From Diplonema papillatum (Eukaryota; Euglenozoa; Diplonemea; Diplonemida; Diplonemidae): a stretch of 64,000 nt of DNA. The DNA lies in contig JAPJBO010000712.1 in the NCBI GenBank assembly GCA_030068145.1, forward strand, positions 1 to 64,000, given 5' to 3'. Positions 41-45,180 of this stretch are shown piece by piece (positions within the stretch are counted from its first letter, which is position 1; each line of letters begins with the position of its first letter). The notes under the pieces were generated by a model. That model saw nothing but the letters and a program-made list of their open reading frames with translations. It was not told the origin of the DNA and searched no databases. The translations under genes and the position numbers were made by a program.

Positions 41-2626
41 AATAGAGCATCTATTTGGTATCGGAAAGTAGGTGCGAGATCAGGCAAACCTTGTGCGCTA
101 GCTTCGTTTAACCGTGAATCTAATAATCAGGGCTTACCCCACATTCTCGCTTTCATTTTATTTCCATTCTCCCCAAGTAATAATGCCGATCCGCAAGGAT
201 AGCCGCACGCGCCGGGCCGCGCTGAACCGTCGACGGGTGATGGATCCTGACTGGGCGGCTGCTGAGGAAGCGGCGGACGGGGCCACGCGGGAGTGGCGCA
301 TGTGGAACCCGTGCGAGCCCGGGGAGACGATGCACGCCCCTCCTCTTGCGGGAAAGGAAGGAAGGACCGGTCGCTGCTGAGGACCGGCTTGGAACGGTCG
401 CTGGGGGCTGGCCCCCCCAGCCGACTCCGAACTTGAAGGACCTGGCGGGAGCATGACGACTGCTCTGCTCTCGTCGCCTGCTGACGATGGCGGAAAGCAG
501 GAAGACCCGGGAAGCGCACCGACCAATGCTCCCGGGCACCACCCAGCTCGCCCCTCCTTCTGCACAGTCGTTTCCCAACGCGACAGAAACCCTGCCCGAC
601 GCCGGCTTTTTGCCTCGGCAGGTCAGGTTGAAGTCGCGAAGGTCGAGACGCTCAGGGGGAGGCAGCTTTTCCTGCGGTCCACCCCCACTTCTACGACCCC
701 CCGACCGCATTCCCCTCGGCTACCTGCCACCGAGACGAGGGGCCTCACTCCGGGAATCGGTGCCCCGAGATCGACGAGGCCGCTCGACGTCACGGCTGTG
801 CCGCCGATCGATCTCCGCGGCCTCCGGAGCCTAGCTGCCCCGGGCCCGCTTGCACGCCTGCTCGACCTCCTGACGACGACACTCCTTCCGTCGGAAGTTG
901 TTGGAAGTGCCTGTCCTGCCGGGTCGGAAGAGCGACGCATTTGCCCGGCATGCGGTGACGCTGGAAGGTGTCGGGTTTGTGGAGCGGGTTCCTCGGTCGC
1001 AGCCGCTGAAGTGCGTCCTGCCGGCATTCGCCGTCGAGAAGGGCGAGCAGCACTCGCGCGCCATCGTCGACGGCCGCCCGCTGAACGAGCTGATGGAGCC
1101 CCCGCCGAAGTTCAGCCTCTTGCGTGTCGACGAGGTCATCAAGAAGATGATGTCGAAGTCACACGCAGTCGTAGTTGACCTGAAGTCCTACTTTTTCCAA
1201 TTCCCAGTAGGACGGTCGACGTCGGCATTCTTCGGGCTTCGAACGAAGAGGCGGACGGGGGCGTGGCCCTGTATCGGTGGCGCCGTCTGACGATGGGCTG
1301 GTCGTACTCGCCGGTGATTGCGCAGGACTCCGCACTCGTCGTCACGGAGCCTGCGAAGGACGACAGGGTCGTCTGGTACGACGACTGGCCCTCGTCGGTG
1401 ACTGTCCGGACGCGCTTCGCGCAGTGCGCGACCGAGTCCTGCGACGCGCCCGCCAGGTGCGCATGACGGTCAACGACGAAAGTCCGTCCTCGAGCCCAGC
1501 TCGACGCCGGTTGTCTTGGGGGTCGAGTTTGACCTCGCGGCGAAGAGGTACCGACTGAAGCAGGAGTGGGCGAGGAAGGCGCACCTCCTCTTTTGCTCGG
1601 TCGGTTCGATGCAGATGACTTTGCGTGGCGTTTGGAAGGTCGTCGGAACCGCCATTTGGGCATGGACGGTGTGGGGCACGCCACTCTGCAGAGTTAGCCC
1701 GGTGCTTGCGTGGATGGGGACCCTGGCGCACCAAGTCCTGACCGGTTCCCTGGGCTGGGAGTCGCTGGTCCGCGTGAGCGACGACGTTTTTCCGTTCCTT
1801 GCGGGAGTGAGACGGCGTCTGTCGGGCAATCGTGGGTCGTTTTCGACTCGAAGCAACGGGACACCCTCGTGGAGGCGTGGTCCGACGCCAGCATGCAGGG
1901 ATGGGCCTGGCTGGTGGGTTCCATGGCGATGTGGGGCCCATGGAGGGATGCACCGCAGCACATCTTCTTCGCCGAGCTTACGGCGGCCAAGTTTGCGGTT
2001 GCGTATGCGGCTTCGCGGTCTCCGCTGTCGACAATCAGAATATTTGTCGACAACTTGCCCGCCGTCAACTGCCTGAAGAACTGGAAGTCGAAGACCGAGC
2101 TCGGGAACCTCATCCTGTGCCAGGTGCGCGACGTCTTGGAGGAACACCAGTGTATCCTCGAGACTGTATGGGTCCCGACTGCTGAACAACTGGCAGACGT
2201 CTGGACACGAGATCCATACAGGCGGGGTATCCGGCCGCCCCGGACCCCGTTCTGTGTTGCATGAGGTTCCTTACCTCGAAAGTTTTGTATTTGCGCTCCT
2301 GATAGCGCTGTTTTTTTTTGCGAGACCCGGAGGCAGCGGGATCTCAGCTCATTGAGTTTCACGTCCAGGGATTTTTATTCCACATTCTCGCTTTCATTTC
2401 ACCAACCCTGGACCTTTATTATTCACCGTTTCTGCCAACGCGACCTTTTCCGAGTTTGAATAGAGTATCTATTTGGTATCGGAAAGTAGGTGCGAGATCA
2501 GGCAAACCTTGTGCGCTAGCTTCGTTTAACCGTGAATCTAATAATCAGGGCTTACCCCACATTCTCGCTTTCATTTCACCAACCCTGCGACCTTTATTAT
2601 TTCACCGTTTCTGCCAGCGCGACCTT

Positions 2627-2689: not shown

Positions 2690-2842
2690 AGAGAAGAAGA
2701 AAAAGAAGAAGAAGAAGAAGAAGAAGAAGAAGAAGAAGAAGAAGAAGAAGAAGAAGAAGAAGAAGAAGAAGAAGAAGAAGAAGAAGAAGAAGAAGAAGAA
2801 GAAGAAGAAGAAGAAGAAGAAGAAGAGAGAAGAGAGAGAGAG
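2631..2842. repeat. (GA)n / (GAA)n microsatellite
   Basis: About 210 bases of GA repeats grade into a long GAA/AAG run and back to GA, lying between the B2 repeat of copy 1 and the A1 repeat of copy 2. The long Glu-only or Lys-only frames it creates are not genes. Confidence 0.95.
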
Positions 2843-2987
2843 TTTGAATAGAGTATCTATTTGGTATCGGAAAGTAGGTGCGAGATCAGGCAAACCTTGT
2901 GCGCTAGCTTCGTTTAACCGTGAATCTAATAATCAGGGCTTACCCCACATTCTCGCTTTCATTTTATTCCATTCTCCCCAAGTAATA

Positions 2988-3185
2988 ATGCCGATCCGCA
3001 AGGATAGCCGCACGCGCCGGGCCGCGCTGAACCGTCGACGGGTGATGGATCCTGACTGGGCGGCTGCTGAGGAAGCGGCGGACGGGGCCACGCGGGAGTG
3101 GCGCATGTGGAACCCGTGCGAGCCCGGGGAGACGATGCACGCCCCTCCTCTTGCGGGAAAGGAAGGAAGGACCGGTCGCTGCTGA
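2988..3185 (+). CDS. Leader ORF (65 aa) of RT element copy 2, Gag-like position
   Basis: This small basic/acidic protein starts MPIRKDSRTRRAALNRR and is followed by an acidic helix-like stretch (DPDWAAAEEAADGATREW). The copy 3 version has the same length of 65 aa, with a substituted but gap-free sequence. That suggests it is translated and under constraint. The ATG at 2988 is chosen because the homologous ATGs at 183 and 5838 begin the same conserved block just after the A1 repeat. Its last codons overlap the RT frame, and the GGGAAAG heptamer sits in its reading phase. I recognise no domain. By position it would be the product made when no frameshift occurs. Confidence 0.6.
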   Translation: MPIRKDSRTRRAALNRRRVMDPDWAAAEEAADGATREWRMWNPCEPGETMHAPPLAGKEGRTGRC

Positions 3186-5089
3186 GGACCGGCTTGGAAC
3201 GGTCGCCTGGGGGCTGGTCCCCCCCAGCCGACTCCGAACTTGAAGGACCTGGCGGGAGCATGACGACTGCTCTGCTCTCGTCGCCTGCTGACGATGGCGG
3301 AAAGCAGGAAGACCCGGGAAGCGCACCGACCAATGCTCCCGGGCACCACCCAGCTCGCCCCTCCTTCTGCGACAGTCGTTTCCCAACGCGACAGAAACCC
3401 TTGCCCGACGCCGGCTTTTTGCCTCGGCAGGTCAGGGGGTTGAAGTCGCGAAGGTCGAGACTGCTCAGGGGAAGGCAGCTTTTCCTGCGGCTCCACCCCC
3501 ACTTCTACGACCCCCCGACCGCAGTTCCCCTCGGCTACCTGCCACCGGAGACGAGGGGCCTCACTCCGGGAATCGGTGCCCCGAGATCGACGAGGCCGCT
3601 CGACGTCACGGCTGTGCCGCCGATCGATCTCCGCGGCCTCCGGAGCCTAGCTGGCCCCGGGGCCCGCTTGCACGGCCTGCTCGACCTCCTGACGGACGGA
3701 CACTCCTTCCGTCGGAAGTTGTTGGAAGTGCCTGTCCTGCCGGGTCGGAAGAGCGACGCATTTGCCCGGCATGCGGTGACGCTGGAAGGTGTCGGGTTTG
3801 TGGAGCGGGTTCCTCGGTCGCAGCCGCTGAAGTGCGTCCTGCCGGCATTCGCCGTCGAGAAGGGCGAGCAGCACTCGCGCGCCATCGTCGACGGCCGCCC
3901 GCTGAACGAGCTGATGGAGCCCCCGCCGAAGTTCAGCCTCTTGCGTGTCGACGAGGTCATCAAGAAGATGATGTCGAAGTCACACGCAGTCGTAGTTGAC
4001 CTGAAGTCCTACTTTTTCCAATTCCCAGTAGGACGGTCGACGTCGGCATTCTTCGGGCTTCGAACGAAGAGGCCGGACGGGGGCGTGGCCCTGTATCGGT
4101 GGCGCCGTCTGACGATGGGCTGGTCGTACTCGCCGGTGATTGCGCAGGACTCCGCACTCGTCGTCACGGAGCCTGCGAAGGACGACAGGGTCGTCTGGTA
4201 CGACGACTGGGCCCTCGTCGGTGACTGTCCGGACGCGCTTCGCGCAGTGCGCGACCGAGTCCTGCGACGCGCCCGCCAGGTGCGCATGACGGTCAACGAC
4301 GAGAAGTCCGTCCTCGAGCCCAGCTCGACGCCGGTTGTCTTGGGGGTCGAGTTTGACCTCGCGGCGAAGAGGTACCGACTGAAGCAGGAGTGGGCGAGGA
4401 AGGCGCACCTCCTCTTTTGCTCGGTCGGTTCGATGCAGATGACTTTGCGTGGCGTTTGGAAGGTCGTCGGAACCGCCATTTGGGCATGGACGGTGTGGGG
4501 CACGCCACTCTGCAGAGTTAGCCCGGTGCTTGCGTGGATGGGGACCCTGGCGCACCAAGTCCTGACCGGTTCCCTGGGCTGGGAGTCGCTGGTCCGCGTG
4601 AGCGACGACGTTTTTCCGTTCCTTGCGGGAGTGAGACGGCGTCTGTCGGGCAACCGGTGGGTCGTTTTCGACTCGAAGCAACGGGACACCCTCGTGGAGG
4701 CGTGGTCCGACGCCAGCATGCAGGGATGGGCCTGGCTGGTGGGTTCCATGGCGATGTGGGGCCCATGGAGGGATGCACCGCAGCACATCTTCTTCGCCGA
4801 GCTTACGGCGGCCAAGTTTGCGGTTGCGTATGCGGCTTCGCGGTCTCCGCTGTCGACAATCAGAATATTTGTCGACAACTTGCCCGCCGTCAACTGCCTG
4901 AAGAACTGGAAGTCGAAGACCGAGCTCGGGAACCTCATCCTGTGCCAGGTCCGCGACGTCTTGGAGGAACACCAGTGTATCCTCGAGACTGTATGGGTCC
5001 CGACTGCTGAACAACTGGCAGACGTCTGGACACGAGATCCATACAGGCGGGGTATCCGGCCGCCCCGGACCCCGTTCTGTGTTGCATGA
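3098..5089 (+). CDS. Reverse transcriptase/RNase H polyprotein of RT element, copy 2
   Basis: The frame has 663 codons from the first ATG, but the natural product is probably a fusion made by a -1 shift at 3155-3161 from the leader ORF. The N-terminal ~200 residues are Arg/Pro-rich and unrecognised. The RT domain follows: a RAIVDGRPLN block, motif A with Asp301 (VVVDLKSYF), and a catalytic box WYDDW at 367-371 instead of the usual [FY]xDD. The RNase H domain shows four acidic positions: Asp538 (WSDAS), Glu568 (FFAELTAAK), Asp593 (IFVDNLPA) and Asp642 (EQLADVW). The RAIVDGRPLN style resembles DIRS/LTR-type polymerases rather than non-LTR ones. The protein would copy the element RNA and remove the RNA strand. 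The copy looks potentially active. Confidence 0.85.
   Translation: MAHVEPVRARGDDARPSSCGKGRKDRSLLRTGLERSPGGWSPPADSELEGPGGSMTTALLSSPADDGGKQEDPGSAPTNAPGHHPARPSFCDSRFPTRQKPLPDAGFLPRQVRGLKSRRSRLLRGRQLFLRLHPHFYDPPTAVPLGYLPPETRGLTPGIGAPRSTRPLDVTAVPPIDLRGLRSLAGPGARLHGLLDLLTDGHSFRRKLLEVPVLPGRKSDAFARHAVTLEGVGFVERVPRSQPLKCVLPAFAVEKGEQHSRAIVDGRPLNELMEPPPKFSLLRVDEVIKKMMSKSHAVVVDLKSYFFQFPVGRSTSAFFGLRTKRPDGGVALYRWRRLTMGWSYSPVIAQDSALVVTEPAKDDRVVWYDDWALVGDCPDALRAVRDRVLRRARQVRMTVNDEKSVLEPSSTPVVLGVEFDLAAKRYRLKQEWARKAHLLFCSVGSMQMTLRGVWKVVGTAIWAWTVWGTPLCRVSPVLAWMGTLAHQVLTGSLGWESLVRVSDDVFPFLAGVRRRLSGNRWVVFDSKQRDTLVEAWSDASMQGWAWLVGSMAMWGPWRDAPQHIFFAELTAAKFAVAYAASRSPLSTIRIFVDNLPAVNCLKNWKSKTELGNLILCQVRDVLEEHQCILETVWVPTAEQLADVWTRDPYRRGIRPPRTPFCVA
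3155..3192 (+). promoter_or_regulatory. Putative -1 ribosomal frameshift signal (copy 2)
   Basis: The heptamer GGGAAAG (3155-3161) is phased X_XXY_YYZ in the leader frame (codons GCG GGA AAG). After a 10-base spacer comes a hairpin with arms CCGGTC (3172-3177) and GACCGG (3187-3192) and a 9-base loop that contains the leader stop TGA (3183-3185). A one-base backward slip joins the leader to the RT frame. The same heptamer, spacing and arms occur in copy 3 although spacer and loop bases differ. Confidence 0.65.
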
Positions 5090-5453
5090 GGTTCCTTACC
5101 TCGAAAGTTTTGTATTTGCGCTCCTGATAGCGCTGTTTTCTTTTTGCGAGACCCGGAGGCAGCGGGATCTCAGCTCATTGAGTTTCACGTCCAGGGATTT
5201 TATTCCACATTCTCGCTTTCATTTCACCAACCCTGCGACCTTTATTATTTCACCGTTTCTGCCAGCGCGACCTTTTCCGAGTTTGAATAGAGTATCTATT
5301 TGGTATCGGAAAGTAGGTGCGAGATCAGGCAAACCTTGTGCGCTAGCTTCGTTTAACCGTGAATCTAATAATCAGGGCTTACCCCACATTCTCGCTTTCA
5401 TTTCACCAACCCTGCGACCTTTATTATTTCACCGTTTCTGCCAGCGCGACCTT

Positions 5454-5456
<3 letters not shown>

Positions 5457-5516
<60 letters not shown>
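5457..5516. repeat. (GA)n microsatellite
   Basis: A GA run follows directly from the CCGAG end of B2 of copy 2. Confidence 0.95.
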
Positions 5517-5837: not shown

Positions 5838-6035
5838 ATGCCGGTACACACGGGTAGCACGCGCCGCCGGGCCGCACGGACCAGCCGTCGGCTGATGGAT
5901 CCTGACTGGGCGGCGGCTGAGGAAGCTGCCGACAAGGCCACCCGGGAGTGGCGGGTATGGAACCCTTGCGAGCCCGGGGAGTCGGCGGCCCCCCGTTCGC
6001 CGGCGGGAAAGGGGGAGAAAGCCGGTCGGAGCTGA
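5838..6035 (+). CDS. Leader ORF (65 aa) of RT element copy 3
   Basis: This is the homologue of the copy 2 leader, 65 aa with no length change. The central block MDPDWAAAEEAAD and the segment WNPCEPGE are retained while flanking residues differ. The retained length despite many base changes argues that it is translated. It ends TGA at 6033-6035, inside the loop of the frameshift hairpin. Confidence 0.6.
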   Translation: MPVHTGSTRRRAARTSRRLMDPDWAAAEEAADKATREWRVWNPCEPGESAAPRSPAGKGEKAGRS

Positions 6036-8056
6036 AGACCGGCATGGAACGGTCGTCTGGGGACTGGTCCCCCCTGGCCGACTGCAGACTTGAAGGACCT
6101 GGCGGGAGTACGACGGAGGCTCTACTCCCGCCTCCGGCTGGCAACGCCGCACAACGCGAAGACCCGGGAAGCGCTTCCACGAATGCACCCGGGCACTCGG
6201 AATTAGCTCATCCTACCCTTTGCGACAGCCGTTTCCCGACACGACAGAAACAACCCTTGCCCGACGCCGGCTTCTCGCCTCGGCAGGTCAGGGGGTTGAA
6301 GTCGCGAAGGTCCAGGTTGCTCAGGGGGAGGAGGCTTTTCCTCCGGCTCCACCCCCATTTCTACGACCCTCCTACCGCAGTTCCTCTCGGGTACCTCCCA
6401 CCAGAAACGAGAGGTCTCATTCCGGGCATCGGTGCCCCGAGATCTGCGAGGCCGCTAGACGTCACGGCAGTGCCGCCGATCGATCTCCGCAAGCTCCGGA
6501 GCCTCGCCGGCCCCGGGGCCCGCTTGCACGGCTTGCTTGACCTCCTAACGGACGGGCACTCCTTCCGACGGAAGTTGTTGGGCACTCCTCTCGTGCCGGG
6601 TCGGAAGAGCGACGCGTTTGCCCGCCATGCGCAGACGCTGGAAAGCGTTGGGTTTGTGGAGCGCGTCCCCCGTTCGGAGCCGCTGAAGTGCGTCCTTCCG
6701 GCTTTTGCTGTTGAAAAGGGCGAACAGCACTCGCGGGCCATCGTTGACGGCCGCCCGCTGAACGAGCTGATGGAGCCCCCGCCGAAGTTCAGCCTCTTGC
6801 GTGTCGACGAGGTCATCGCCAAGATGATGTCGAAGTCGTACGCAGTCGTCGTTGACCTGAAGTCCTACTTCTTCCAGTTCCCAGTAGGACGGTCGACGTC
6901 AGCTTTCTTCGGGCTCCGCACAAGGAAGCTCGACGGGGGCGTGGCTCTGTATAGGTGGCGCCGGCTGACGATGGGCTGGTCTTTCTCGCCCGTGATTGCG
7001 CAGGACTCGGCGCTTGTCATCACGGAGCCTGCCGGGGACGATAAGATAGTCTGGTACGACGACTGGGCCCTCGTTGAAGACTGTCCGGATGCGCTTCGCG
7101 CCGTGCGCGACCGAGTTTTGCGGCGTGCCCGCAAGGTGCGCATGACAGTCAACGACGAGAAGTCCGTCCTCGAGCCCAGCTCGAAACCAGTCGTCCTCGG
7201 GGTAGAATTCGACCTCGCGGCGAAGACGTACAGGCTGAAACAGGAGTGGGCGAGAAAAGCGCACCTGCTGTTTTGCTCAGCTGAGTCGGCACAGATGACC
7301 GTGCGCGGGATCTGGAAGGTCGTCGGGACCGCCATCTGGGCGTGGACGGTGTGGGGCACGCCGCTTTGCAGAGTGAGCCCGGTGCTTGCGTGGATGGGGA
7401 CACTGGCGCATCAGGTCCTAACAGGCACCCTGGGCTGGGAGTCGCTGGTTCGAGTGAGCGACGACGTCCTTCCTTTCCTTGCTGGGGTGAGGCGGCGTCT
7501 GTCGGGGAACCGGTGGGTCACGTTCGACATGCAGCAGCGGGATACCCTCGTCGAGGCATGGTCCGACGCCAGCATGCAGGGATGGGCCTGGCTAGTGGAT
7601 TCCATGGCAATGTGGGGACCGTGGAGAGATATCCCGCAGCATATCTTCTTTGCCGAATTAACGGCGGCAAAGTTTGCTATTGCGTACGCGGCTTCGCGCT
7701 CTCCGCTATCGACAATAAGAATCTTTGTCGACAACTTGCCCGCCGTGAACTGTCTGAGGAATTGGAAGTCGAAGACCCAACTCGGGAACTTCATCCTCTG
7801 CCAGGTCCGCGACGTGTTGGAAGTTCCTGCAACCGATTCAACGGACGCGCCGGCACGTCGAGCGGGTAGAACCCGTCGACGCAACAGTAGTCTCGAGCAG
7901 ACACTTCGACGCGTACACGGAGTCGGGCAAGCCCACCTCAGCGGCAGCTTGCTCCCCCCCCCGCCGGGACCTGGGGAGAGTGCGGACAGCGGGGGCTTCT
8001 CGATTTGGTATCGGAAAGTAGGTGCGAGATCAGGCAACTTTTTGTGCACTAATTGA
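5948..8056 (+). CDS. Reverse transcriptase/RNase H of copy 3, C-terminus replaced
   Basis: The frame has 702 codons from the first in-frame ATG and is probably entered by -1 frameshifting at 6005-6011. The RT is complete: RAIVDGRPLN, motif A VVVDLKSYFFQF and the catalytic WYDDW box. RNase H keeps the SDAS, FFAELTAAK and IFVDNLPAVN blocks. After CQVRDVLE the protein switches to a Thr/Arg/Pro-rich tail of about 70 residues unrelated to copies 1 and 2, so the final RNase H acidic block (EQLADVW) is missing. RNase H activity is therefore doubtful. The frame even reads into the A-type repeat at its end, which points to a recombined 3' end rather than an evolved tail. Confidence 0.75.
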   Translation: MAGMEPLRARGVGGPPFAGGKGGESRSELKTGMERSSGDWSPLADCRLEGPGGSTTEALLPPPAGNAAQREDPGSASTNAPGHSELAHPTLCDSRFPTRQKQPLPDAGFSPRQVRGLKSRRSRLLRGRRLFLRLHPHFYDPPTAVPLGYLPPETRGLIPGIGAPRSARPLDVTAVPPIDLRKLRSLAGPGARLHGLLDLLTDGHSFRRKLLGTPLVPGRKSDAFARHAQTLESVGFVERVPRSEPLKCVLPAFAVEKGEQHSRAIVDGRPLNELMEPPPKFSLLRVDEVIAKMMSKSYAVVVDLKSYFFQFPVGRSTSAFFGLRTRKLDGGVALYRWRRLTMGWSFSPVIAQDSALVITEPAGDDKIVWYDDWALVEDCPDALRAVRDRVLRRARKVRMTVNDEKSVLEPSSKPVVLGVEFDLAAKTYRLKQEWARKAHLLFCSAESAQMTVRGIWKVVGTAIWAWTVWGTPLCRVSPVLAWMGTLAHQVLTGTLGWESLVRVSDDVLPFLAGVRRRLSGNRWVTFDMQQRDTLVEAWSDASMQGWAWLVDSMAMWGPWRDIPQHIFFAELTAAKFAIAYAASRSPLSTIRIFVDNLPAVNCLRNWKSKTQLGNFILCQVRDVLEVPATDSTDAPARRAGRTRRRNSSLEQTLRRVHGVGQAHLSGSLLPPPPGPGESADSGGFSIWYRKVGARSGNFLCTN
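6005..6042 (+). promoter_or_regulatory. Putative -1 ribosomal frameshift signal (copy 3)
   Basis: GGGAAAG (6005-6011) lies in the same phase as in copy 2. A 10-base spacer of different sequence follows, then arms CCGGTC (6022-6027) and GACCGG (6037-6042) around a 9-base loop of different sequence. Confidence 0.65.
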
Positions 8057-8362: not shown

Positions 8363-8629
8363 TCCCGAACTTTAACCGTTAACTGCTGCCTCCAGTCTCG
8401 CCGTGCGCACATTGATTTTCGGGGAAGCCATTATTATCGTCAGATTTCCGGAAAATCGCGTTTCAGACAAAAACGCATTGTTGGCGGGACATCAAGGTAA
8501 ACGTGCAAAAGAAGGGTATTGGGACGCTGCTGCTTCAGCTTCGTCTGGGGCATCGCGTTCTGATGCCTCTTCTGTTCCCCATTGCTGGCCCGTGGAGAGG
8601 GTCCCGCTTGTAGCACTCACAGCAACATT
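8363..8629. other. No recognisable feature
   Basis: A 112-codon plus-strand frame runs through here (8403-8741) but its end overlaps the antisense of the 18S fragment, so it is very unlikely to be a gene. Confidence 0.5.
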
Positions 8630-8782
8630 GTTACGACTTTTGCTTCCTCTAGCTGAGAAACATTGCTTGAATTTGGGCGCTGAACTTGTTGTCAAGAACG
8701 AGCTTCCCTCTCCCAAGCTCTATCCCACAGCCAATCGGTAGCAACGACGGGCGGTGTGTACAAATGGCAGGGACGTAATCAG
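8630..8782 (-). rRNA. 18S rRNA 3'-end fragment (degenerate, pseudogene)
   Basis: Read on the minus strand, this matches the universally conserved 3' end of eukaryotic small-subunit rRNA. The sequence around the decoding region is present (plus strand CGACGGGCGGTGTGTACAAA and GGCAGGGACGTAATCA). After a divergent V9-like stretch comes the terminal stem (plus strand TTGTTACGACTTTTGCTTCC). Single-base differences in the conserved core, for example GTAGCAACG where GTAGTAGCG is usual, and the isolated context show it is a dispersed fragment and not an active gene. The conserved cores are eukaryotic rather than bacterial in type. Confidence 0.85.
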
Positions 8783-19978: not shown

Positions 19979-22900
19979 TTATCGTATCTTCGAGCTTGAC
20001 TTGATCTCGTGCATTAGCCAAGTGGCCCATTCTGTTGCTTTCCCGCTGGGCTCCTGATAGCGGACTCGCGCGCAAACAGACAGTATGACTGCTGTGTTGC
20101 GGGCTGCAAATTCATCCAATACTTGTCTGTACGTTACCTCCCTCTGTCCAAAGATGCGCGTGAGGTTGGCTTCGGGTCCGTAGCATAGAATATGTCGTTC
20201 ATCGCCAGCCGTCAGGACATGATCTGCACTTCCTCGGTGGTAGCAGCCTTCTACGGCGCACTCGTTGCGGGTTTTGAACGGCATGATGGCTCTACGGGTG
20301 AGTGCTTGGAGGAGGTCCGTAGCTCCATGCAGGTTCCGCAGCGTCCGCAGGGCTTGTGCGCTGAGGCAGCGAGGTGGTACGTCGGTAGATAGTCGATTAC
20401 GGACCGCGGTGTCGCGACTGTCGGTACGGTTTCTCCTCGCGAAGAGTCCGTTTTCTTCGAGTTGCACCAGGTCACCATTGTTGTCTTCGGTATCGTCTTC
20501 TTGCCACCGTTGGCACAGCCTGGCAACGTTGGCCTTGCGGTAGCACCATTCGACGTTGAATGTGCTGCTTTTTTGGTAAGCGGCGTTTGCTGCGACGTCT
20601 GCCGCGTTGATGTCGGCATTGTCGCTGTGTCCCCTGGCCCACTGCACATCTGGGAGAGTACACAGCACCATGGCGACCGGGTCCCCTTTGCGGGGGTTCC
20701 TTAACCGGGCGATGGCGCTCATGCTGTCGCTTCGCGGCTTGGCCATCGCGTGGGGCTTGACTTCCTTCAGTGCAGTCGCTAGAACCATCATCGCACACAA
20801 TTCTGCTTGTGTGCTCGAGCTGATCCTCCCATGGATCTTCGCACCGTAGGCCCTGCCGTTGACGCAAATTCCGACAGCGCCTCTGCCTTCTTTTTCCAGG
20901 TAGCTCCCGTCGGTTGCTACTCTGACGACATCGCCGCTTGCTTCAGCTTCTCTGAGCGCCCTCTCGGTCCATGTTATGACGTAGGGCTTTCGCACCCTCC
21001 GCGGTGGGCGCAGCTCGAATCCGGTTGCTGGGATTCTGCCTTCCGTCAGGTCGGGGTGGGCGGCCAGGTAAGCCCTTACCTTTTGCTGTTCAGAGAAATC
21101 CTTTATCGGTGTCATTCCGTATCCAAAGGAGCAGGCCGGATATCCTGAGATTCCATTGCTTCCATGGTGTCTTGGGATGAGTTTTGTGTAAGCGGCTTGC
21201 AACTTGGGGTGCGTCGGGTCGAAGCACTTCGAGACTGCCTGTATGGCGAGCGTTGGCAGCGCATAGCTTCTGTAGAGCTCACTCTTGCCTCGAGTGGAGC
21301 AGTAGTAAGACTGCGAGATCATTGCACAGACTCTGCTGAAGCGTTCGACTCTTTTCCGATTACGTGCACAGGATGCGTGGTCGTTGTCTCCGTGTAGGCA
21401 TCCCCCGAGAAGTCTAGTGGACAGCCGCGTCGTCACCGTGCCAAGACCGGGAATCGGTATCTTGCTGACCCTCGAAGCGACCACCACTAGCTTTCTTCGG
21501 GCCAACTTAAAGCCCCTGCTTGTCATCCAGTCGTTGAGCACCTGTACTTGAACCGGGACCGATTTGACCGCTGCGAGAGATGTAAGGTCGTCAACGTAGG
21601 CTTTGCACTGTGTGAGGTCTGGCGGGTCCGCTGTGTAATACAGGTAGAGTATCACGCTCAGTGGGGAACCCTGCAGCAGTCCTCTCCTCAGCGCCATAGG
21701 CGGGGTAAAACCTTCGTTAGTGGTCAGCGTATACCACTGCGACTCTAACACTGCCTCGATCGATCTCGCCCACTCGTCTCCGAAGTCGTTGCGTATTTTT
21801 TCCAGTAGCTTGTCGTGTGGTACTGTGTCGTAGGCTGCTTCGATGTCAGCGATGACAACTGCTGGGTCCTCTTCGTCGCCGCCGTCCATCCATTCTTGCG
21901 CCCGCTGGAGGATCTCGAGGGTGGCATGCTGCCGCTGGCATCCGTATTGGAAGTCTTTGGCTTTAATCCGCTCAATGCAGAGGTCTCGGATCTTGAGGTA
22001 GACGCAGACGTGGAGGAATTTTAGCATCAGTGGCATGATGGCAATTGGTCGGTAGGCGTTCGGGGAGGTTTTTGGGATGCCGGGTTTCGAGATGAGAAAA
22101 ATCCATGACAGCGCATGTTCGTGCGGGATTCCGGCTTCCAGCCACTCGTTAAAAGTGTCAGCTACAGTCGTAATTTCTTTTGGGCGGAGTGTGGATAAGA
22201 ACGTTGCCGACAGGTCGGTCGTCCTAGCCTTCTTCTTCACGAATGGAATCGCTGTCTCTACGTCTTCCGGCGACAGTTTGTGGTGTCTCTCGGTCTCCTC
22301 TTTTTTTTCCATCGGTCTAGGGGCTCGCGTTGCTACCGCGTCGTATCTGCTCTGGAACCGGTCAACTACGGCGGCGACATTCAGGACTCTCGGGGGCTCG
22401 TACGGTCGTCGTTGTTGGAGGGCGTGGTTGCTGGTTTCGCCCCTGGTGGCGTAGGCGATTCGTTTCCGAATGTCGCTGACCTGGCGGTTCATCTCCTTCT
22501 TGTCGGCTTCGTCGGTGGCATTGCGTCGCTTCAACATCCTCGTATTTAACGCTCGCTGGAGTCGCGCAATCTTCGTCGTGCGGTATCGGGGCGGCCGGTA
22601 TGCGATTGGGCTTAGCATTGTTGCCATGAGGCCATCGAAGTCGTCTGCGGTTGGTCGGTCGTTTTTGGGGTATCTCATGGGCGGGATGATCTTTACGATC
22701 GTGTGGTCGTATTCAAGGCTGATCGCTGCATGGTCACTGCCTCCGGTGAACCGGGCTGATTCGAAGGTGCAGCTTGTGTTGCGGGGAACAAAGACTCTGT
22801 CCAGCGATGTATCTGCGTTGCTCCTGTGGTATGTAGTGCGTCCTCGCACCAGTTCGTCCCCTGCGTTGCGTCTGACGATTCCCTCGACTGTTGGTGTGGT

Positions 22901-23782
22901 GTTGCCGTTGAAGTCGCCGGTAACTACGTATTCTCCCACGCAGCGCCTCATGGTGTTGACGATCCAGCTGCCGAGTGCCTCCGCCTCTGCCCTTGGGGTG
23001 TTGTTCACCACATACACTGAGATCACCCGCAGGACGTGTTCCCCGATTTTAAGATCGGCAAAGCAGCACGAGCGGTGGGACCCAGTCCGCAGTACTTGCA
23101 TCGTAGAGTCAGTTCGAATCAGAATGCTGCTGCGTGCGATCCGCTTCTGTCCATTCGTCTCTGTTGCTGTGACTAGCGGGTTCCAGCCCTTGAGGAGCGC
23201 CACGTCTTCAAATACGCGGGGATCCCTTCCAATCTCACTCGCTGTGAGGATGTGTGTTCTGGGTAGGAGGTCGAAGTAGGCTACCAGGCTTTTCTTGCAG
23301 CAGGAGTTGCAGCTAGCGATGCGCACTTTGCTTTGGCCGGCGTTGTTACGACGATGGTCTGCGATGATACGATGGTTTTCGGGGTTGTTTTGGGTGCCTC
23401 CACGGGGGAAGGTAGGTGGGAACATGGTGAGCTGAACTGTTGATTGGTTGGTTGAGGAGTTGGGCTGCTGTAGCGCTACTCGCGGCTCGGTGGTAGGCAG
23501 GTGTAGTGCCCCCGACACGGTGCTGAGTGGTGCATCTGGTAGGATCGGTGGATGATAAGTTGAGGTAGGGATGATCAAGTTGGGAAGGCGGGCGTCGCTC
23601 CGTGCAGTGATGGGTGTTGGCAGGAGGGGCACAGATGATGATGCGAGGGCTGGGTTTGGGAAGAGGGGAGGCCCAGCTGATGTCGTGGGCGCGTTAACTT
23701 GAATTGGCGGTGGTTGTGGTTGTGGTTGATTGTCGATAGGGCTGCAGTTGGTCGTCTGCGACACAGGGCTTGACGTCGTCAC
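19979..23782 (-). CDS. ORF2 of non-LTR element A: endonuclease, reverse transcriptase, RNase H
   Basis: 1267 codons with no stop. The first ~130 residues are Pro/Thr/Ser-rich. An apurinic-endonuclease-type domain follows (SCNSC start, catalytic SEIG, GDFN at 289-292, SLDRVFV, SDH at 349-351). The RT shows FLISKPG, YRPIAI, motif A ADIEAAYD with Asp646, LLQGSPLS and catalytic YVDD at 729-732. RNase H has ATDGSY (Asp958), STQAELCA, an SDSMSAI Asp and the INAADVAA Asp. A C-terminal knuckle C-x4-C...DHVL is near residue 1190. It would nick target DNA and prime cDNA synthesis from the nick. All catalytic residues are present, so the copy could be active if ORF1 is whole. Confidence 0.95.
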   Translation of the reverse strand: MTTSSPVSQTTNCSPIDNQPQPQPPPIQVNAPTTSAGPPLFPNPALASSSVPLLPTPITARSDARLPNLIIPTSTYHPPILPDAPLSTVSGALHLPTTEPRVALQQPNSSTNQSTVQLTMFPPTFPRGGTQNNPENHRIIADHRRNNAGQSKVRIASCNSCCKKSLVAYFDLLPRTHILTASEIGRDPRVFEDVALLKGWNPLVTATETNGQKRIARSSILIRTDSTMQVLRTGSHRSCCFADLKIGEHVLRVISVYVVNNTPRAEAEALGSWIVNTMRRCVGEYVVTGDFNGNTTPTVEGIVRRNAGDELVRGRTTYHRSNADTSLDRVFVPRNTSCTFESARFTGGSDHAAISLEYDHTIVKIIPPMRYPKNDRPTADDFDGLMATMLSPIAYRPPRYRTTKIARLQRALNTRMLKRRNATDEADKKEMNRQVSDIRKRIAYATRGETSNHALQQRRPYEPPRVLNVAAVVDRFQSRYDAVATRAPRPMEKKEETERHHKLSPEDVETAIPFVKKKARTTDLSATFLSTLRPKEITTVADTFNEWLEAGIPHEHALSWIFLISKPGIPKTSPNAYRPIAIMPLMLKFLHVCVYLKIRDLCIERIKAKDFQYGCQRQHATLEILQRAQEWMDGGDEEDPAVVIADIEAAYDTVPHDKLLEKIRNDFGDEWARSIEAVLESQWYTLTTNEGFTPPMALRRGLLQGSPLSVILYLYYTADPPDLTQCKAYVDDLTSLAAVKSVPVQVQVLNDWMTSRGFKLARRKLVVVASRVSKIPIPGLGTVTTRLSTRLLGGCLHGDNDHASCARNRKRVERFSRVCAMISQSYYCSTRGKSELYRSYALPTLAIQAVSKCFDPTHPKLQAAYTKLIPRHHGSNGISGYPACSFGYGMTPIKDFSEQQKVRAYLAAHPDLTEGRIPATGFELRPPRRVRKPYVITWTERALREAEASGDVVRVATDGSYLEKEGRGAVGICVNGRAYGAKIHGRISSSTQAELCAMMVLATALKEVKPHAMAKPRSDSMSAIARLRNPRKGDPVAMVLCTLPDVQWARGHSDNADINAADVAANAAYQKSSTFNVEWCYRKANVARLCQRWQEDDTEDNNGDLVQLEENGLFARRNRTDSRDTAVRNRLSTDVPPRCLSAQALRTLRNLHGATDLLQALTRRAIMPFKTRNECAVEGCYHRGSADHVLTAGDERHILCYGPEANLTRIFGQREVTYRQVLDEFAARNTAVILSVCARVRYQEPSGKATEWATWLMHEIKSSSKIR

Positions 23783-23800
23783 TGCTTCGGTAGGTTGATA

Positions 23801-31231: not shown

Positions 31232-32854
31232 CTAGTTCCTTCTCCCGTGACTTTTGCCGGATCCTTTGCTGTGCTTCTGTCCTTTGTTCTTGCCTTTGCC
31301 CTTGCCTTTGTTATTGCCTTTGTCATTTTCTTTGCCTTTGCCTTTGCCTTTGCCATTGTCGTCGCCATCGTTGCACGGCGCGTCGTTGTAGAATGAGGGG
31401 ATTGGGAGGGGGGTCGCTGGGGGTCGAAGAGCCGCGGTTCCGTTCATCAAAGACGAGAAGTAGTCGAAGGCTAGATCTCCGAAGCGACCACAGCTGTCGG
31501 CGGCTGCGTCGATCGAGGCTTGGAAGTGAACGCCGCCCCACACCCTGCTGTCCCCGCAATCCTGCGCGAATTCAGTCCAAGTCGGGAACACAATCGTCGT
31601 GTCCGCAGCAGGCAGGATGCCAGGTTCCGACAGCGAGCTACCAGCCGCCCACTCCACTGGATAGTTCAAAACATCGTTTCCAAAGTACTTCCTCAACGAC
31701 TGAGCATGCGCGAAGCAGAAGCAGGTCGACGCCGACGGGTACTCAGGGTGGTCTGCCTCTTCAAACAACGACTTCCAGTCCGTCGCCTTCATGTCAACAG
31801 TACCCTGTCCTGGTCCACCCCACCCACTTACGAGATCGTCCCCGTAGACGTGCTTGATCGCGCTGAAAGGCCGCACTGCGTCCCACCGCCGCTTCTCGTT
31901 CCACACGAAGATCCCCGCGTCAAAAGCTGCCATGTTCGACAAGAAGTCCAGTTGCACGAACTGCAGCGTGTTGAGACCGCCGGAGAGAGTCTTGAATACG
32001 GCTGAAAAGCCAAGGCCCCTCACCTTGTTGTCAAACAGCTCGGCCTTGAGCTTCTGTTCTTCAGTGAGGCCGGCAGACGCTGCCAGGACTTCGTCGACCT
32101 GCTTCTTGTACAGCGCTTTGTTCTTCACGTTGCTGTTGACCGGCGGCGGGACCTGCCAAGCGTTCGGGTTGCTGTACGCGTACGGTTCCGTGATGCCCCA
32201 CTGCGGTGTGACGAACTGCTGGATCTTGTACAGTCCCAACCCTTTTCTCTGCATGTCGGGCTGCCATTTCGATGGGTTGTTCAGTGCGTAGGCCGTGTTC
32301 ACCGGAGCGTACCCAGTCGTGTCCATGAAGGGTTCGAAGTGGCGTTCCCGCATGAAATCCCCGGCAGAGTTCATCCCGTCGTACCGACGGCCTTCCGCAA
32401 CCTTCGTGCCGGCAATCGTCCCAATGCCAGCAGCCGTCGTCGGAACGTCCATATCCGCCGACAGCACGTCGATTCCGATGCTGTCCAGGAACGCATCGAT
32501 CTCAGCCAAGCGCCCAGGGAAGAACTCCCGCAGTATCGGGCGCGCCGCGTACATAACAGCAACGTTCACGGATCTGATGGTGCGGTCTTCTACCGGCCTT
32601 CTGTCGAAGCGGGAGTACACTCCGACGGCTGTCTCATCGTATGGTGCCGTCGCATCGAACCACGCATTGGTCAGCATCGTCGTGAGCCGCAGCACCAACG
32701 GCGCATCGCCGAAACCGGATGAAATGTCTTGCTGTGTCCAAGGTAGCAGAGCCGGAAACAAGGCTTCTATGAGTACGTTTCCGCTGTCGAAATCGAACGC
32801 GTCGCAGCCGACGGCCAGCGTGAGAAGGACGAGTGGGATACGACACATCGTCAT
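31232..32854 (-). CDS. Vanadium-dependent haloperoxidase-like protein (unit 1)
   Basis: 540 aa, PAP2/vanadium-haloperoxidase superfamily. A hydrophobic N-terminus (PLVLLTLAVG) ending CDA-F looks like a signal peptide, so the protein is probably secreted. Vanadate-site residues by spacing to fungal chloroperoxidase are Lys321 and Arg328 (EKRRWDAVRP), Ser374 with Ala375 and Ser376 (EYPSAS), and Arg437 and His443 (SRVWGGVH). The usual Gly-His after the serine is Ala-Ser, so the acid-base histidine is replaced. From about residue 494 the tail is Lys/Gly-rich (GKGKGKGK). Haloperoxidases oxidise halides with peroxide; the substrate here is unknown. The ATG at 32854 is chosen because it starts the signal peptide and because the upstream frame open in units 2-5 is broken here. 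Thr replaces Ala in LLPW(T/A)QQD relative to the other copies. Confidence 0.9.
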   Translation of the reverse strand: MTMCRIPLVLLTLAVGCDAFDFDSGNVLIEALFPALLPWTQQDISSGFGDAPLVLRLTTMLTNAWFDATAPYDETAVGVYSRFDRRPVEDRTIRSVNVAVMYAARPILREFFPGRLAEIDAFLDSIGIDVLSADMDVPTTAAGIGTIAGTKVAEGRRYDGMNSAGDFMRERHFEPFMDTTGYAPVNTAYALNNPSKWQPDMQRKGLGLYKIQQFVTPQWGITEPYAYSNPNAWQVPPPVNSNVKNKALYKKQVDEVLAASAGLTEEQKLKAELFDNKVRGLGFSAVFKTLSGGLNTLQFVQLDFLSNMAAFDAGIFVWNEKRRWDAVRPFSAIKHVYGDDLVSGWGGPGQGTVDMKATDWKSLFEEADHPEYPSASTCFCFAHAQSLRKYFGNDVLNYPVEWAAGSSLSEPGILPAADTTIVFPTWTEFAQDCGDSRVWGGVHFQASIDAAADSCGRFGDLAFDYFSSLMNGTAALRPPATPLPIPSFYNDAPCNDGDDNGKGKGKGKENDKGNNKGKGKGKNKGQKHSKGSGKSHGRRN

Positions 32855-33095
32855 TTTACTTTTTGTTGGTGGGCTTGTTTGCTTGAAGGAGACCTGATCG
32901 TGTTGCAGAAAGAAGGTGAGCAGGAAGCTCCAATGAAATGAGGAGATTTGTGGATTCGGTTCAACGCTCGAGTTTTATGGCAACTAAACGCCAAAACCTT
33001 CGTGAGCTGAGTGATTCTCGTTTGGGTCCAGGCGCATTGGCCAAAACATAAGAAACCAGACCCGGCGTTCGGCGTCGGCCTATTTTTAGCCTTTA

Positions 33096-37049: not shown

Positions 37050-38672
37050 CTAGTTCCTTCTCCCGTGACTTTTGCCGGATCCTTTGCTGTGCTTCTGTCC
37101 TTTGTTCTTGCCTTTGCCCTTGCCTTTGTTATTGCCTTTGTCATTTTCTTTGCCTTTGCCTTTGCCTTTGCCATTGTCGTCGCCATCGTTGCACGGCGCG
37201 TCGTTGTAGAATGAGGGGATTGGGAGGGGGGTCGCTGGGGGTCGAAGAGCCGCGGTTCCGTTCATCAAAGACGAGAAGTAGTCGAAGGCTAGATCTCCGA
37301 AGCGACCACAGCTGTCGGCGGCTGCGTCGATCGAGGCTTGGAAGTGAACGCCGCCCCACACCCTGCTGTCCCCGCAATCCTGCGCGAATTCAGTCCAAGT
37401 CGGGAACACAATCGTCGTGTCCGCAGCAGGCAGGATGCCAGGTTCCGACAGCGAGCTACCAGCCGCCCACTCCACTGGATAGTTCAAAACATCGTTTCCA
37501 AAGTACTTCCTCAACGACTGAGCATGCGCGAAGCAGAAGCAGGTCGACGCCGACGGGTACTCAGGGTGGTCTGCCTCTTCAAACAACGACTTCCAGTCCG
37601 TCGCCTTCATGTCAACAGTACCCTGTCCTGGTCCACCCCACCCACTTACGAGATCGTCCCCGTAGACGTGCTTGATCGCGCTGAAAGGCCGCACTGCGTC
37701 CCACCGCCGCTTCTCGTTCCACACGAAGATCCCCGCGTCAAAAGCTGCCATGTTCGACAAGAAGTCCAGTTGCACGAACTGCAGCGTGTTGAGACCGCCG
37801 GAGAGAGTCTTGAATACGGCTGAAAAGCCAAGGCCCCTCACCTTGTTGTCAAACAGCTCGGCCTTGAGCTTCTGTTCTTCAGTGAGGCCGGCAGACGCTG
37901 CCAGGACTTCGTCGACCTGCTTCTTGTACAGCGCTTTGTTCTTCACGTTGCTGTTGACCGGCGGCGGGACCTGCCAAGCGTTCGGGTTGCTGTACGCGTA
38001 CGGTTCCGTGATGCCCCACTGCGGTGTGACGAACTGCTGGATCTTGTACAGTCCCAACCCTTTTCTCTGCATGTCGGGCTGCCATTTCGATGGGTTGTTC
38101 AGTGCGTAGGCCGTGTTCACCGGAGCGTACCCAGTCGTGTCCATGAAGGGTTCGAAGTGGCGTTCCCGCATGAAATCCCCGGCAGAGTTCATCCCGTCGT
38201 ACCGACGGCCTTCCGCAACCTTCGTGCCGGCAATCGTCCCAATGCCAGCAGCCGTCGTCGGAACGTCCATATCCGCCGACAGCACGTCGATTCCGATGCT
38301 GTCCAGGAACGCATCGATCTCAGCCAAGCGCCCAGGGAAGAACTCCCGCAGTATCGGGCGCGCCGCGTACATAACAGCAACGTTCACGGATCTGATGGTG
38401 CGGTCTTCTACCGGCCTTCTGTCGAAGCGGGAGTACACTCCGACGGCTGTCTCATCGTATGGTGCCGTCGCATCGAACCACGCATTGGTCAGCATCGTCG
38501 TGAGCCGCAGCACCAACGGCGCATCGCCGAAACCGGATGAAATGTCTTGCTGTGCCCAAGGTAGCAGAGCCGGAAACAAGGCTTCTATGAGTACGTTTCC
38601 GCTGTCGAAATCGAACGCGTCGCAGCCGACGGCCAGCGTGAGAAGGACGAGTGGGATACGACACATCGTCAT
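37050..38672 (-). CDS. Vanadium-dependent haloperoxidase-like protein (unit 2)
   Basis: 540 aa, same protein as in unit 1 except Ala in LLPWAQQD. All active-site positions are as in unit 1. In this and later units the frame stays open for another 109 codons upstream (to an ATG at 38999). That extension crosses the upstream region, lacks any domain and would bury the signal peptide, so the start at 38672 is preferred. Confidence 0.9.
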   Translation of the reverse strand: MTMCRIPLVLLTLAVGCDAFDFDSGNVLIEALFPALLPWAQQDISSGFGDAPLVLRLTTMLTNAWFDATAPYDETAVGVYSRFDRRPVEDRTIRSVNVAVMYAARPILREFFPGRLAEIDAFLDSIGIDVLSADMDVPTTAAGIGTIAGTKVAEGRRYDGMNSAGDFMRERHFEPFMDTTGYAPVNTAYALNNPSKWQPDMQRKGLGLYKIQQFVTPQWGITEPYAYSNPNAWQVPPPVNSNVKNKALYKKQVDEVLAASAGLTEEQKLKAELFDNKVRGLGFSAVFKTLSGGLNTLQFVQLDFLSNMAAFDAGIFVWNEKRRWDAVRPFSAIKHVYGDDLVSGWGGPGQGTVDMKATDWKSLFEEADHPEYPSASTCFCFAHAQSLRKYFGNDVLNYPVEWAAGSSLSEPGILPAADTTIVFPTWTEFAQDCGDSRVWGGVHFQASIDAAADSCGRFGDLAFDYFSSLMNGTAALRPPATPLPIPSFYNDAPCNDGDDNGKGKGKGKENDKGNNKGKGKGKNKGQKHSKGSGKSHGRRN

Positions 38673-39514
38673 TTTACTTTTTGTTGGTGGGCTTGTTTGC
38701 TTGAAAAAGACCTGATCGTGTTGCAGAAAGAAGGTGCAGGAAGCTCCAATGAAATGAGGAGATTTGTGGATTCGGTTCAACGCTCGAGTTTTATGGCAAC
38801 TAAACGCCAAAACCTTCGTGAGCTGAGTGATTCTCGTTTGGGTCCAGGCGCATTGGCCAAAACATAAGAAACCAGACCCGGCGTTCGGCGTCGGCCTATT
38901 TTTAGCCTTTATTTTTAGAGTGTAAGTTTTTGAGGGGTGGTTGTTTTTCATCATGACCAGACCATCTGTACGCAGAGAACTTGGGAAATAGTCCCACACC
39001 GCAAACGGTCTCCATTTTTACTTCCCTGGCTGAACTGAATTCTAAGCTCGAAAACGTACACATCGGCATATTCGGGCTCAAAGGGCCGCACCTGGTCCCT
39101 TGGACGGGTAGTCACTTCGGATGGCGTGGCGAACATGATTCCCCAAGCCAAGCGAAGACTTTGGCCGAAGCTAGCTGCCGCTGTTGAAAGTGTCTTCCTT
39201 GGTGGGCGCCGGCCAGCTGCTTCCTTTGCTGCGCTTCGGGGGGTCGTTGGCGGCGTCGGGGTCTCGCGCTGCTTCAGGCGTCTCCGGAGAGTGGCGAGGC
39301 CTGGTTCGGCGCTTCGTGCGACCCCTCTTCTTCTCGCTGGTGAACGTTCCTTCAGCCTTGCCTGCAGCGGCGCGCGCGTCTTCGGTCTCAGTGGTGGCGA
39401 GACCTTTCAGCGCCACTTTGCCGCCAGCGGCGGTCTCAGTGCCGCCGCGGTCGATCGTGCTTTCCGAGCCTGCCGCTTCCTTCGTGGCGCGTCGGGGGTC
39501 GATGGCACCCCCAA

Positions 39515-43557: not shown

Positions 43558-45180
43558 CTAGTTCCTTCTCCCGTGACTTTTGCCGGATCCTTTGCTGTGC
43601 TTCTGTCCTTTGTTCTTGCCTTTGCCCTTGCCTTTGTTATTGCCTTTGTCATTTTCTTTGCCTTTGCCTTTGCCTTTGCCATTGTCGTCGCCATCGTTGC
43701 ACGGCGCGTCGTTGTAGAATGAGGGGATTGGGAGGGGGGTCGCTGGGGGTCGAAGAGCCGCGGTTCCGTTCATCAAAGACGAGAAGTAGTCGAAGGCTAG
43801 ATCTCCGAAGCGACCACAGCTGTCGGCGGCTGCGTCGATCGAGGCTTGGAAGTGAACGCCGCCCCACACCCTGCTGTCCCCGCAATCCTGCGCGAATTCA
43901 GTCCAAGTCGGGAACACAATCGTCGTGTCCGCAGCAGGCAGGATGCCAGGTTCCGACAGCGAGCTACCAGCCGCCCACTCCACTGGATAGTTCAAAACAT
44001 CGTTTCCAAAGTACTTCCTCAACGACTGAGCATGCGCGAAGCAGAAGCAGGTCGACGCCGACGGGTACTCAGGGTGGTCTGCCTCTTCAAACAACGACTT
44101 CCAGTCCGTCGCCTTCATGTCAACAGTACCCTGTCCTGGTCCACCCCACCCACTTACGAGATCGTCCCCGTAGACGTGCTTGATCGCGCTGAAAGGCCGC
44201 ACTGCGTCCCACCGCCGCTTCTCGTTCCACACGAAGATCCCCGCGTCAAAAGCTGCCATGTTCGACAAGAAGTCCAGTTGCACGAACTGCAGCGTGTTGA
44301 GACCGCCGGAGAGAGTCTTGAATACGGCTGAAAAGCCAAGGCCCCTCACCTTGTTGTCAAACAGCTCGGCCTTGAGCTTCTGTTCTTCAGTGAGGCCGGC
44401 AGACGCTGCCAGGACTTCGTCGACCTGCTTCTTGTACAGCGCTTTGTTCTTCACGTTGCTGTTGACCGGCGGCGGGACCTGCCAAGCGTTCGGGTTGCTG
44501 TACGCGTACGGTTCCGTGATGCCCCACTGCGGTGTGACGAACTGCTGGATCTTGTACAGTCCCAACCCTTTTCTCTGCATGTCGGGCTGCCATTTCGATG
44601 GGTTGTTCAGTGCGTAGGCCGTGTTCACCGGAGCGTACCCAGTCGTGTCCATGAAGGGTTCGAAGTGGCGTTCCCGCATGAAATCCCCGGCAGAGTTCAT
44701 CCCGTCGTACCGACGGCCTTCCGCAACCTTCGTGCCGGCAATCGTCCCAATGCCAGCAGCCGTCGTCGGAACGTCCATATCCGCCGACAGCACGTCGATT
44801 CCGATGCTGTCCAGGAACGCATCGATCTCAGCCAAGCGCCCAGGGAAGAACTCCCGCAGTATCGGGCGCGCCGCGTACATAACAGCAACGTTCACGGATC
44901 TGATGGTGCGGTCTTCTACCGGCCTTCTGTCGAAGCGGGAGTACACTCCGACGGCCGTCTCATCGTATGGTGCCGTCGCATCGAACCACGCATTGGTCAG
45001 CATCGTCGTGAGCCGCAGCACCAACGGCGCATCGCCGAAACCGGATGAAATGTCTTGCTGTGCCCAAGGTAGCAGAGCCGGAAACAAGGCTTCTATGAGT
45101 ACGTTTCCGCTGTCGAAATCGAACGCGTCGCAGCCGACGGCCAGCGTGAGAAGGACGAGTGGGATACGACACATCGTCAT
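43558..45180 (-). CDS. Vanadium-dependent haloperoxidase-like protein (unit 3)
   Basis: 540 aa, protein identical to the unit 2 copy. One synonymous base difference is visible (near 44955). The upstream frame is open to 45507 as in unit 2. Confidence 0.9.
   Translation of the reverse strand: MTMCRIPLVLLTLAVGCDAFDFDSGNVLIEALFPALLPWAQQDISSGFGDAPLVLRLTTMLTNAWFDATAPYDETAVGVYSRFDRRPVEDRTIRSVNVAVMYAARPILREFFPGRLAEIDAFLDSIGIDVLSADMDVPTTAAGIGTIAGTKVAEGRRYDGMNSAGDFMRERHFEPFMDTTGYAPVNTAYALNNPSKWQPDMQRKGLGLYKIQQFVTPQWGITEPYAYSNPNAWQVPPPVNSNVKNKALYKKQVDEVLAASAGLTEEQKLKAELFDNKVRGLGFSAVFKTLSGGLNTLQFVQLDFLSNMAAFDAGIFVWNEKRRWDAVRPFSAIKHVYGDDLVSGWGGPGQGTVDMKATDWKSLFEEADHPEYPSASTCFCFAHAQSLRKYFGNDVLNYPVEWAAGSSLSEPGILPAADTTIVFPTWTEFAQDCGDSRVWGGVHFQASIDAAADSCGRFGDLAFDYFSSLMNGTAALRPPATPLPIPSFYNDAPCNDGDDNGKGKGKGKENDKGNNKGKGKGKNKGQKHSKGSGKSHGRRN

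Follow-up and report, generated by a model that had tools for sequence, protein, structure and literature searches.

A candidate -1 frameshift site between leader and reverse transcriptase in an apparent DIRS-order retrotransposon family of Diplonema papillatum

The window analysed here is a 64,000-nucleotide (nt) stretch of the Diplonema papillatum genome (GenBank assembly GCA_030068145.1, contig JAPJBO010000712.1, positions 1 to 64,000 of the forward strand). Near its start lie two copies of a retroelement, A (2988-5089) and B (5838-7831), in each of which a leader of 65 amino acids (aa) overlaps a long open reading frame (ORF) for reverse transcriptase (RT) set in the -1 frame relative to it. 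Both copies are internally deleted, and they look like members of a DIRS-order (tyrosine-recombinase) retrotransposon family. That RT is coupled to the leader, or to the Gag protein from which the leader derives, is well supported. With moderate confidence, and judging from sequence, we propose that the coupling operates by -1 ribosomal frameshifting on the heptamer G_GGA_AAG. Table 1 lists the features concerned.

Table 1. Features of the leader/RT elements in the window
Feature	Position	Strand	Remark
Decayed A copy, same cassette at 350-387	183..2264	+	indels disrupt the RT frame
A1, 5' split direct repeat of copy A	2840..2964	+	125 bases identical to A2
Leader ORF of copy A, 65 aa + TGA; C-terminal Gag remnant	2988..3185	+	related to D Gag C-terminus
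-1 frame ORF of copy A: linker, reverse transcriptase, RNase H	3071..5089	+	RVT_1 match; RNase H by motif
Heptamer G_GGA_AAG, candidate slippery site	3155..3161	+	read in A, B, B' (L069, L070), D, L065, C669/L067
10-nt spacer	3162..3171	+	extended fold of A leaves 6 nt
Hairpin 1, CCGGTC / 9-nt loop / GACCGG	3172..3192	+	common to A and B only
CTGA: leader stop overlapping RT-frame CTG	3182..3185	+	D has ATGA here
Nucleotide-conserved stretch past leader stop	3186..3258	+	1 synonymous and 7 non-synonymous RT-frame changes
Possible hairpin 2, 17 nt past stop	3203..3231	+	drawn from fold of A
First RT-frame ATG of A past leader stop	3260..3262	+	ACG in B
B1 repeat	5205..5281	+	77 bases identical to 5384-5460
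A2 repeat	5279..5403	+	identical to A1
B2 repeat; element end at GA tract	5384..5460	+	identical to B1
Leader ORF of copy B, 65 aa + TGA	5838..6035	+	
-1 frame RT ORF of copy B	5921..7831	+	3' part swapped for unrelated sequence
Copy B heptamer, spacer and hairpin 1	6005..6042	+	
RT-frame ATG of B	6044..6046	+	GGCATGG context; TTG in A

Copies A and B and their full-length relative

In copy A the -1 frame is open from 3071 to 5086 (672 codons) and in copy B from 5921 to 8053 (711 codons). The encoded RT matches the Pfam family RVT_1 above its curated cut-off (E=2.7e-10). The RNase H of copy A is assigned by motif alone, the Pfam scan having returned no match to it, and the same scan found no methyltransferase in A or B. 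Copy A lies between split direct repeats arranged in the order A1...B1-A2-B2 (125 and 77 identical bases), which is the order given for PAT, Ngaro and VIPER elements in passages of two reports (PMC6681497; PMC4157794). Elements of this kind sit mostly in GA or GAA repeats (2640-2841 and 5460-5515 in the window; 3865-4152 in locus L002). All 64 outer 5' flanks counted, some copies being counted twice, end in GAG; 45 of them are pure GA repeat over 14 nt, five are GAA repeat and a few are non-repeat. The last GAG is common to the element end and its target, which is what insertion of a circle by a recombinase would produce.

The genome of the same organism (271 Mb, 2910 contigs) contains many copies. 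With the RT of A as query, 67 of 2713 candidates were scored and proved 99-100% identical, while the B query recovered its own class together with classes at 96% and 88%. The leader pattern, allowing up to three mismatches, gave 239 matches. The first-pass annotation had spoken of two diverged copies; A and B have indeed diverged, but they stand for two families with many copies each. Collections of viral contigs, genome contigs and phages held no RT-encoding relative, in scans that reach close relatives only.

A full-length relative in the same genome, here called D, was found in the flanks of the fetched loci L009, L014 and L015, the first of which is extended by L061. Its Gag is 257 aa long (C76:439110-439880) and towards its C-terminus is similar to the leader of A and B (51% over 43 aa against B). 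The leader is thus the C-terminal tail of an ancestral 257-aa Gag. A putative zinc finger in D Gag matches zf-C2HC_2 at E=0.0086, below cut-off, as is the top match, DUF5997, at E=0.0047. Downstream of Gag, D has a 350-codon frame that is intact in 47 of its 49 best full-length genome matches, at 98-100% identity. This frame may encode a tyrosine recombinase, since an R...GHR...Y signature can be picked out by eye (...RRGAATAL...GHRKKSVFRYY). Recombinase profiles match it weakly (PHROG integrase, E=0.0091; Pfam Phage_integrase, E=0.24) and NCBIfam not at all. Its predicted structure has a pLDDT of 37, and a PDB search with it returned no recombinase, the one match being a glycosyl hydrolase at E=1.5. 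Other recombinase families occur in the same genome at 31-32% identity, on contigs with 521- and 801-codon frames and in locus L071.

The recombinase ORF of D is absent from A and B. The alignment of A with B runs unbroken over the site that it occupies in D, and the two therefore share the recombinase deletion. In its Gag with putative zinc finger, recombinase-like ORF and RT/RNase H, D resembles the VIPER-like, Ngaro and PAT elements of the DIRS order, a likeness that extends to the split direct repeats of copy A. Unlike those elements, A and B no longer carry the recombinase or the greater part of Gag.

Substitution patterns show that the core of the leader and RT are under purifying selection. 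Over the first 430 of 447 RT codons aligned in all three elements, dN/dS is 0.10 for A-B (dS 0.489), 0.11 for A-D (dS 0.404) and 0.08 for B-D (dS 0.533). In the leader frame, dN/dS is 0.15 for codons 19-48, 0.81 for codons 49-65 and 0.44 for the whole leader. When window positions 3098-5086 are compared with D (L061), the RT of A has a lower dS against D (0.40) than against B (0.49), even though it is with B that A has the leader and the deletion in common; this hints at exchange between families.

The junction of leader and RT

In copy A the heptamer GGGAAAG falls within the leader codons GCG GGA AAG and therefore in the X_XXY_YYZ phase. A 10-nt spacer leads to the arm CCGGTC (3172-3177), a 9-nt loop (3178-3186) that contains the leader stop TGA (3183-3185), and the arm GACCGG (3187-3192). 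The layout of copy B is identical, with heptamer, spacer, arm, loop and arm at 6005-6011, 6012-6021, 6022-6027, 6028-6036 and 6037-6042. All of these elements were described in the first-pass annotation, and all read letter for letter in both copies. By hand count, A and B differ at 10 of 19 sites in spacer and loop and at 0 of 19 sites in heptamer and arms; the sites were picked after the fact, and therefore no P value is claimed.

The chance of meeting such a cassette was estimated with a scan for an NNNWWWN heptamer followed 5-12 nt downstream by a perfect 6-bp stem. Its rate is 0.053 per shuffled 2.1-kb A element (300 mononucleotide shuffles), from which simple arithmetic gives about 0.001 for a cassette in the right phase within the 115-nt overlap. 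Across both strands of the whole window the scan returns 18 matches, three of them the cassette itself and 15 of them repeated copies of three sites in a tandem array. Because A and B share ancestry, their cassettes count only once.

The heptamer is retained in the X_XXY_YYZ phase in the five lineages read. In D it occupies the same phase as in A and B, within the Gag/RT overlap, where Gag ends TCG GGA AAG GGG GGC AAG GGC GGC CGG GGC CGC AAA TGA. It is intact in every junction read, including eight D copies (L009, L014, L015, L062, L063, L064, L066, L068), both B' copies (L069, L070) and the variants L065 and L067/C669. Among full-length copies of the two window families (36 of A, including the decayed one, and 33 of B, some double-counted) there is no change in 3155-3192 or 6005-6042. 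This invariance of young copies is given no weight here, since they were chosen by RT score and the window copies were recounted as loci.

Folded in 46-nt stretches, hairpin 1 reaches -14.0 kcal/mol in A (z -1.54), where 14 of 200 shuffles do as well, and -14.4 in B (z -3.30), where 2 of 200 do. The 84-nt region around it gives z -1.15 for A and -0.56 for B. The heptamer stands 10 nt from the core stem and 6 or 9 nt from the extended stems.

Start codons for the RT frame are also found near the junction. In D, L065 and C669 an RT-frame AUG overlaps the Gag stop as AUGA, and in A and B the corresponding letters are CUGA. The RT-frame ATG of B listed in Table 1 lies 8 nt past its leader stop, and another is found at 5957 within the leader overlap. 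In A the first one past the stop comes 74 nt after it. Besides the NUG that overlaps the stop, no RT-frame ATG is homologous in two families. These codons raise the alternative of coupled termination-reinitiation, by which ribosomes would finish the leader or Gag and, helped by a downstream RNA structure, restart in the RT frame. The restart codon would be the AUG over the stop in D, the CUG over the stop in A and B, or one of the AUGs close by (+8 nt in B, +74 nt in A). Such coupling has a precedent in SART1 of the silkworm, where, according to part of one report, a structure downstream of an overlapping stop-start links ORFs (PMC5972666). The family resembles SART1 in the AUGA of D and in a possible downstream structure, and it differs from SART1 in the CUGA of A and B and in having an in-phase slippery heptamer with a long overlap.

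The candidate for that structure is hairpin 2, which appears to be kept in four lineages within the nucleotide-conserved stretch past the leader stop. Over A, B, D and C669, 87.5% of the alignment cells in this hairpin can pair, as compared to 27.5-70% when the arms are slid by 1-3 columns. It shows zero double compensatory changes, and 129 of 500 letter-shuffled controls score at least as high, which is not significant. The homologous position of the NUG over the stop and the ATG of B in its GGCATGG context would both suit reinitiation. It would have to operate in A and B with no AUG at the stop, while A lacks the later ATG of B and B that of A; hairpin 2 has no covariation support, and the in-phase heptamer would be left unaccounted for. 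On this evidence we regard reinitiation as a serious alternative, though a less probable one than frameshifting.

Expression of RT

In D the -1 frame is open for 891 codons to the end of the fetched stretch, passing through the 350-codon frame and on into an RT close to that of A and B. Across 332 recombinase codons it contains no stops, while the +1 frame contains 8, as expected. The -1 frame itself would be expected to hold 3.8 stops on average in 20,000 synonymous permutations (P(0)=0.013) and 8.3 when codon usage is sampled, with none of 5000 samples stop-free. The RT frame is therefore maintained free of stops beginning at the Gag stop or upstream of it, and this argues against RT starting only after the recombinase.

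Two further explanations bear on this open frame. RT synthesis might not depend on the leader at all, using an AUG of its own or a separate transcript (by leaky scanning or an internal promoter), with the cassette as a chance leftover of Gag. The RT-frame ATGs of A (3260) and B (5957, 6044) would serve such a route, and RT-frame constraint between A and B becomes detectable only from 3260 onward (dN/dS 0.38). An open -1 frame over all 332 recombinase codons would be needless if RT started after the recombinase, and the leader has been retained with a constrained core, so that independent expression seems improbable. Alternatively, splicing could remove the leader stop (and, in D, the recombinase) and join the frames. 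Nothing specific speaks for splicing beyond the fact that a eukaryotic host may have introns, and it would not need the -1 frame to stay open through the recombinase gene of D; we consider it very improbable.

Frameshifting on G_GGA_AAG would proceed as follows. Ribosomes would translate the Gag remnant of A and B, and a fraction of them would slip by -1 on the heptamer before reaching the stop, entering the RT/RNase H frame to yield a leader-RT fusion. In full-length D, the same shift would produce a Gag-Pol protein by reading straight through the recombinase gene nested in the other frame. The sequence itself shows the layout, its phase, the retained heptamer, the constraint on leader and RT, and a -1 frame that stays open over the recombinase ORF. 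From these we infer slippage, its efficiency and its stimulation by hairpin 1. The arrangement recalls the -1 signals of retroviral and long terminal repeat Gag-Pol genes (G_GGA_AAC type) in its in-phase heptamer, short spacer, -1 overlap and, in A and B, hairpin. Heptamers that end in G are poor slippery sites on eukaryotic ribosomes. Frameshifting is favoured, not strongly, because the heptamer is the only candidate signal for RT expression that every family read has, without change, in the homologous position. According to passages in one report, G_GGA_AAC ranks with the heptamers on which mammalian ribosomes shift most, while G_GGA_AAG is highly shift-prone in E. coli and is used for shifting by a virus of halophilic archaea (PMC5009743).

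A number of results weigh against frameshifting. In 121-nt stretches the minimum-energy folds replace hairpin 1, with z +0.33 for A and +0.25 for B. The arms of hairpin 1 are absent from D, which has an alternative hairpin (GCGGC/GCCGC, -7.9) that in C669 is reduced by one broken pair to 4 bp and -4.8. The junction fold of D does not beat its shuffles (z +0.98/-0.41). Over the four families, RNAalifold finds no covariation (covariation term +0.19; 1 of 27 pairs doubly changed), and both hairpin 1 and the outer pairs of hairpin 2 are missing from its consensus. A stable structure 5-9 nt downstream that is conserved among the relatives is therefore lacking. The first-pass annotation had read the cassette as the product of selection for a frameshift signal, stem included; with the stem missing from D-type relatives, whose own hairpin is weak, and lost from both the longer folds and the consensus, that part of the claim is not supported.

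The heptamer and the coding pattern around it also call for caution. The codons GGA and AAG make up 41 of 220 glycine and 72 of 86 lysine codons, from which the chance of an identical heptamer is about 0.05 if synonymous sites were saturated. A dS of 0.4-0.5 leaves most synonymous sites unchanged, so selection on the heptamer is not demonstrated; conservation beyond coding expectation, which the first-pass annotation had proposed to look for, does not emerge at a synonymous divergence of just 0.40-0.53. The downstream ORF does not lack start codons of its own (3260 in A; 6044 and 5957 in B; the AUGA of D). A separate RT start codon had been named beforehand as evidence that would count against a frameshift, and the RT-frame ATGs near the stop in A, B and D partly provide it. 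Finally, the stretch 3186-3258 is conserved as nucleotides and not as RT-frame codons, the ratio of synonymous to non-synonymous differences being 1/7 in the RT frame, 3/6 in the leader frame and 4/4 in the third. Codon-phase counts in the junction favour no frame, that of RT included. What stands of the original proposal of a frameshift that fuses leader to RT is a constrained leader, an RT in the -1 frame, and in D the same in-phase heptamer and open frame; selection for the stem is not supported.

Overlap of ORFs is familiar in the DIRS order. Recombinase and RT ORFs are described in one report as "frequently extensively overlapped" (PMC6681497), and passages of another report place the catalytic part of the DIRS1-like recombinase in a non-overlapping 3' end and note that Ngaro and Viper are usually without ORF overlaps (PMC3266345). 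D differs in that the open RT frame encloses its entire recombinase ORF together with the catalytic end, a distinction drawn against these general descriptions and not against individual elements. In the literature searched, a limited collection, no description was found of DIRS-order Pol expression as ribosomal frameshifting. We tentatively suggest that this DIRS-order family makes its Gag-Pol by a single -1 frameshift where Gag ends, the Pol frame then reading through an entire, separately translated tyrosine recombinase gene. It would also include a long-lived lineage without recombinase (A and B, with their shared deletion, RT dS of 0.49 and dN/dS of 0.10) that keeps only the frameshift site, a Gag stub and RT. 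This lineage may depend on recombinase supplied by full-length elements, and its own split direct repeats, being the same, could be offered to that enzyme as substrate. The family also shows that purifying selection acts on RT even where the recombinase is gone. With the same heptamer in one full-length lineage and two deleted ones, it forms a compact natural experiment, and because the start codons and hairpins of these lineages differ, frameshifting and reinitiation can be tested against each other directly in A, B and D.

Other families and other features of the window

Three further families were considered as junction comparisons and set aside. In the G family (C286) a single stop-free frame covers the 631 nt read, and Gag and recombinase may be one ORF there. 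The E family (L008, L049; RT about 31%) has its own ATG, with neither leader nor heptamer, and none of the F-family Gag loci reaches a junction, each ending or being cut off earlier. The E-family RT (L008 3804-4989; L049 1136-1, minus strand) faces A or B copies head-to-head, with a GA/TC tract between them.

Elsewhere in the window, tandem repeats of about 5.8-8.8 kb occur on the minus strand at 37053-39017, 43561-45525, 50066-52030 and 58895-60859, each with a 655-codon open frame, with a shorter one at 31235-32974. The copy at 37053-39017, the one that was scanned, matches vanadium chloroperoxidase domains (VCPO_2nd, E=1.9e-45; DUF6851, E=2.1e-39), and the array looks like a recently amplified haloperoxidase gene array. 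On the minus strand at 19982-23800, a 1273-codon open frame with an RVT_1 match and a weak RNase H match below cut-off marks another retrotransposon. A fragment at 8604-8756, also on the minus strand, matches the 3' end of eukaryotic small-subunit rRNA (75.7 bits).

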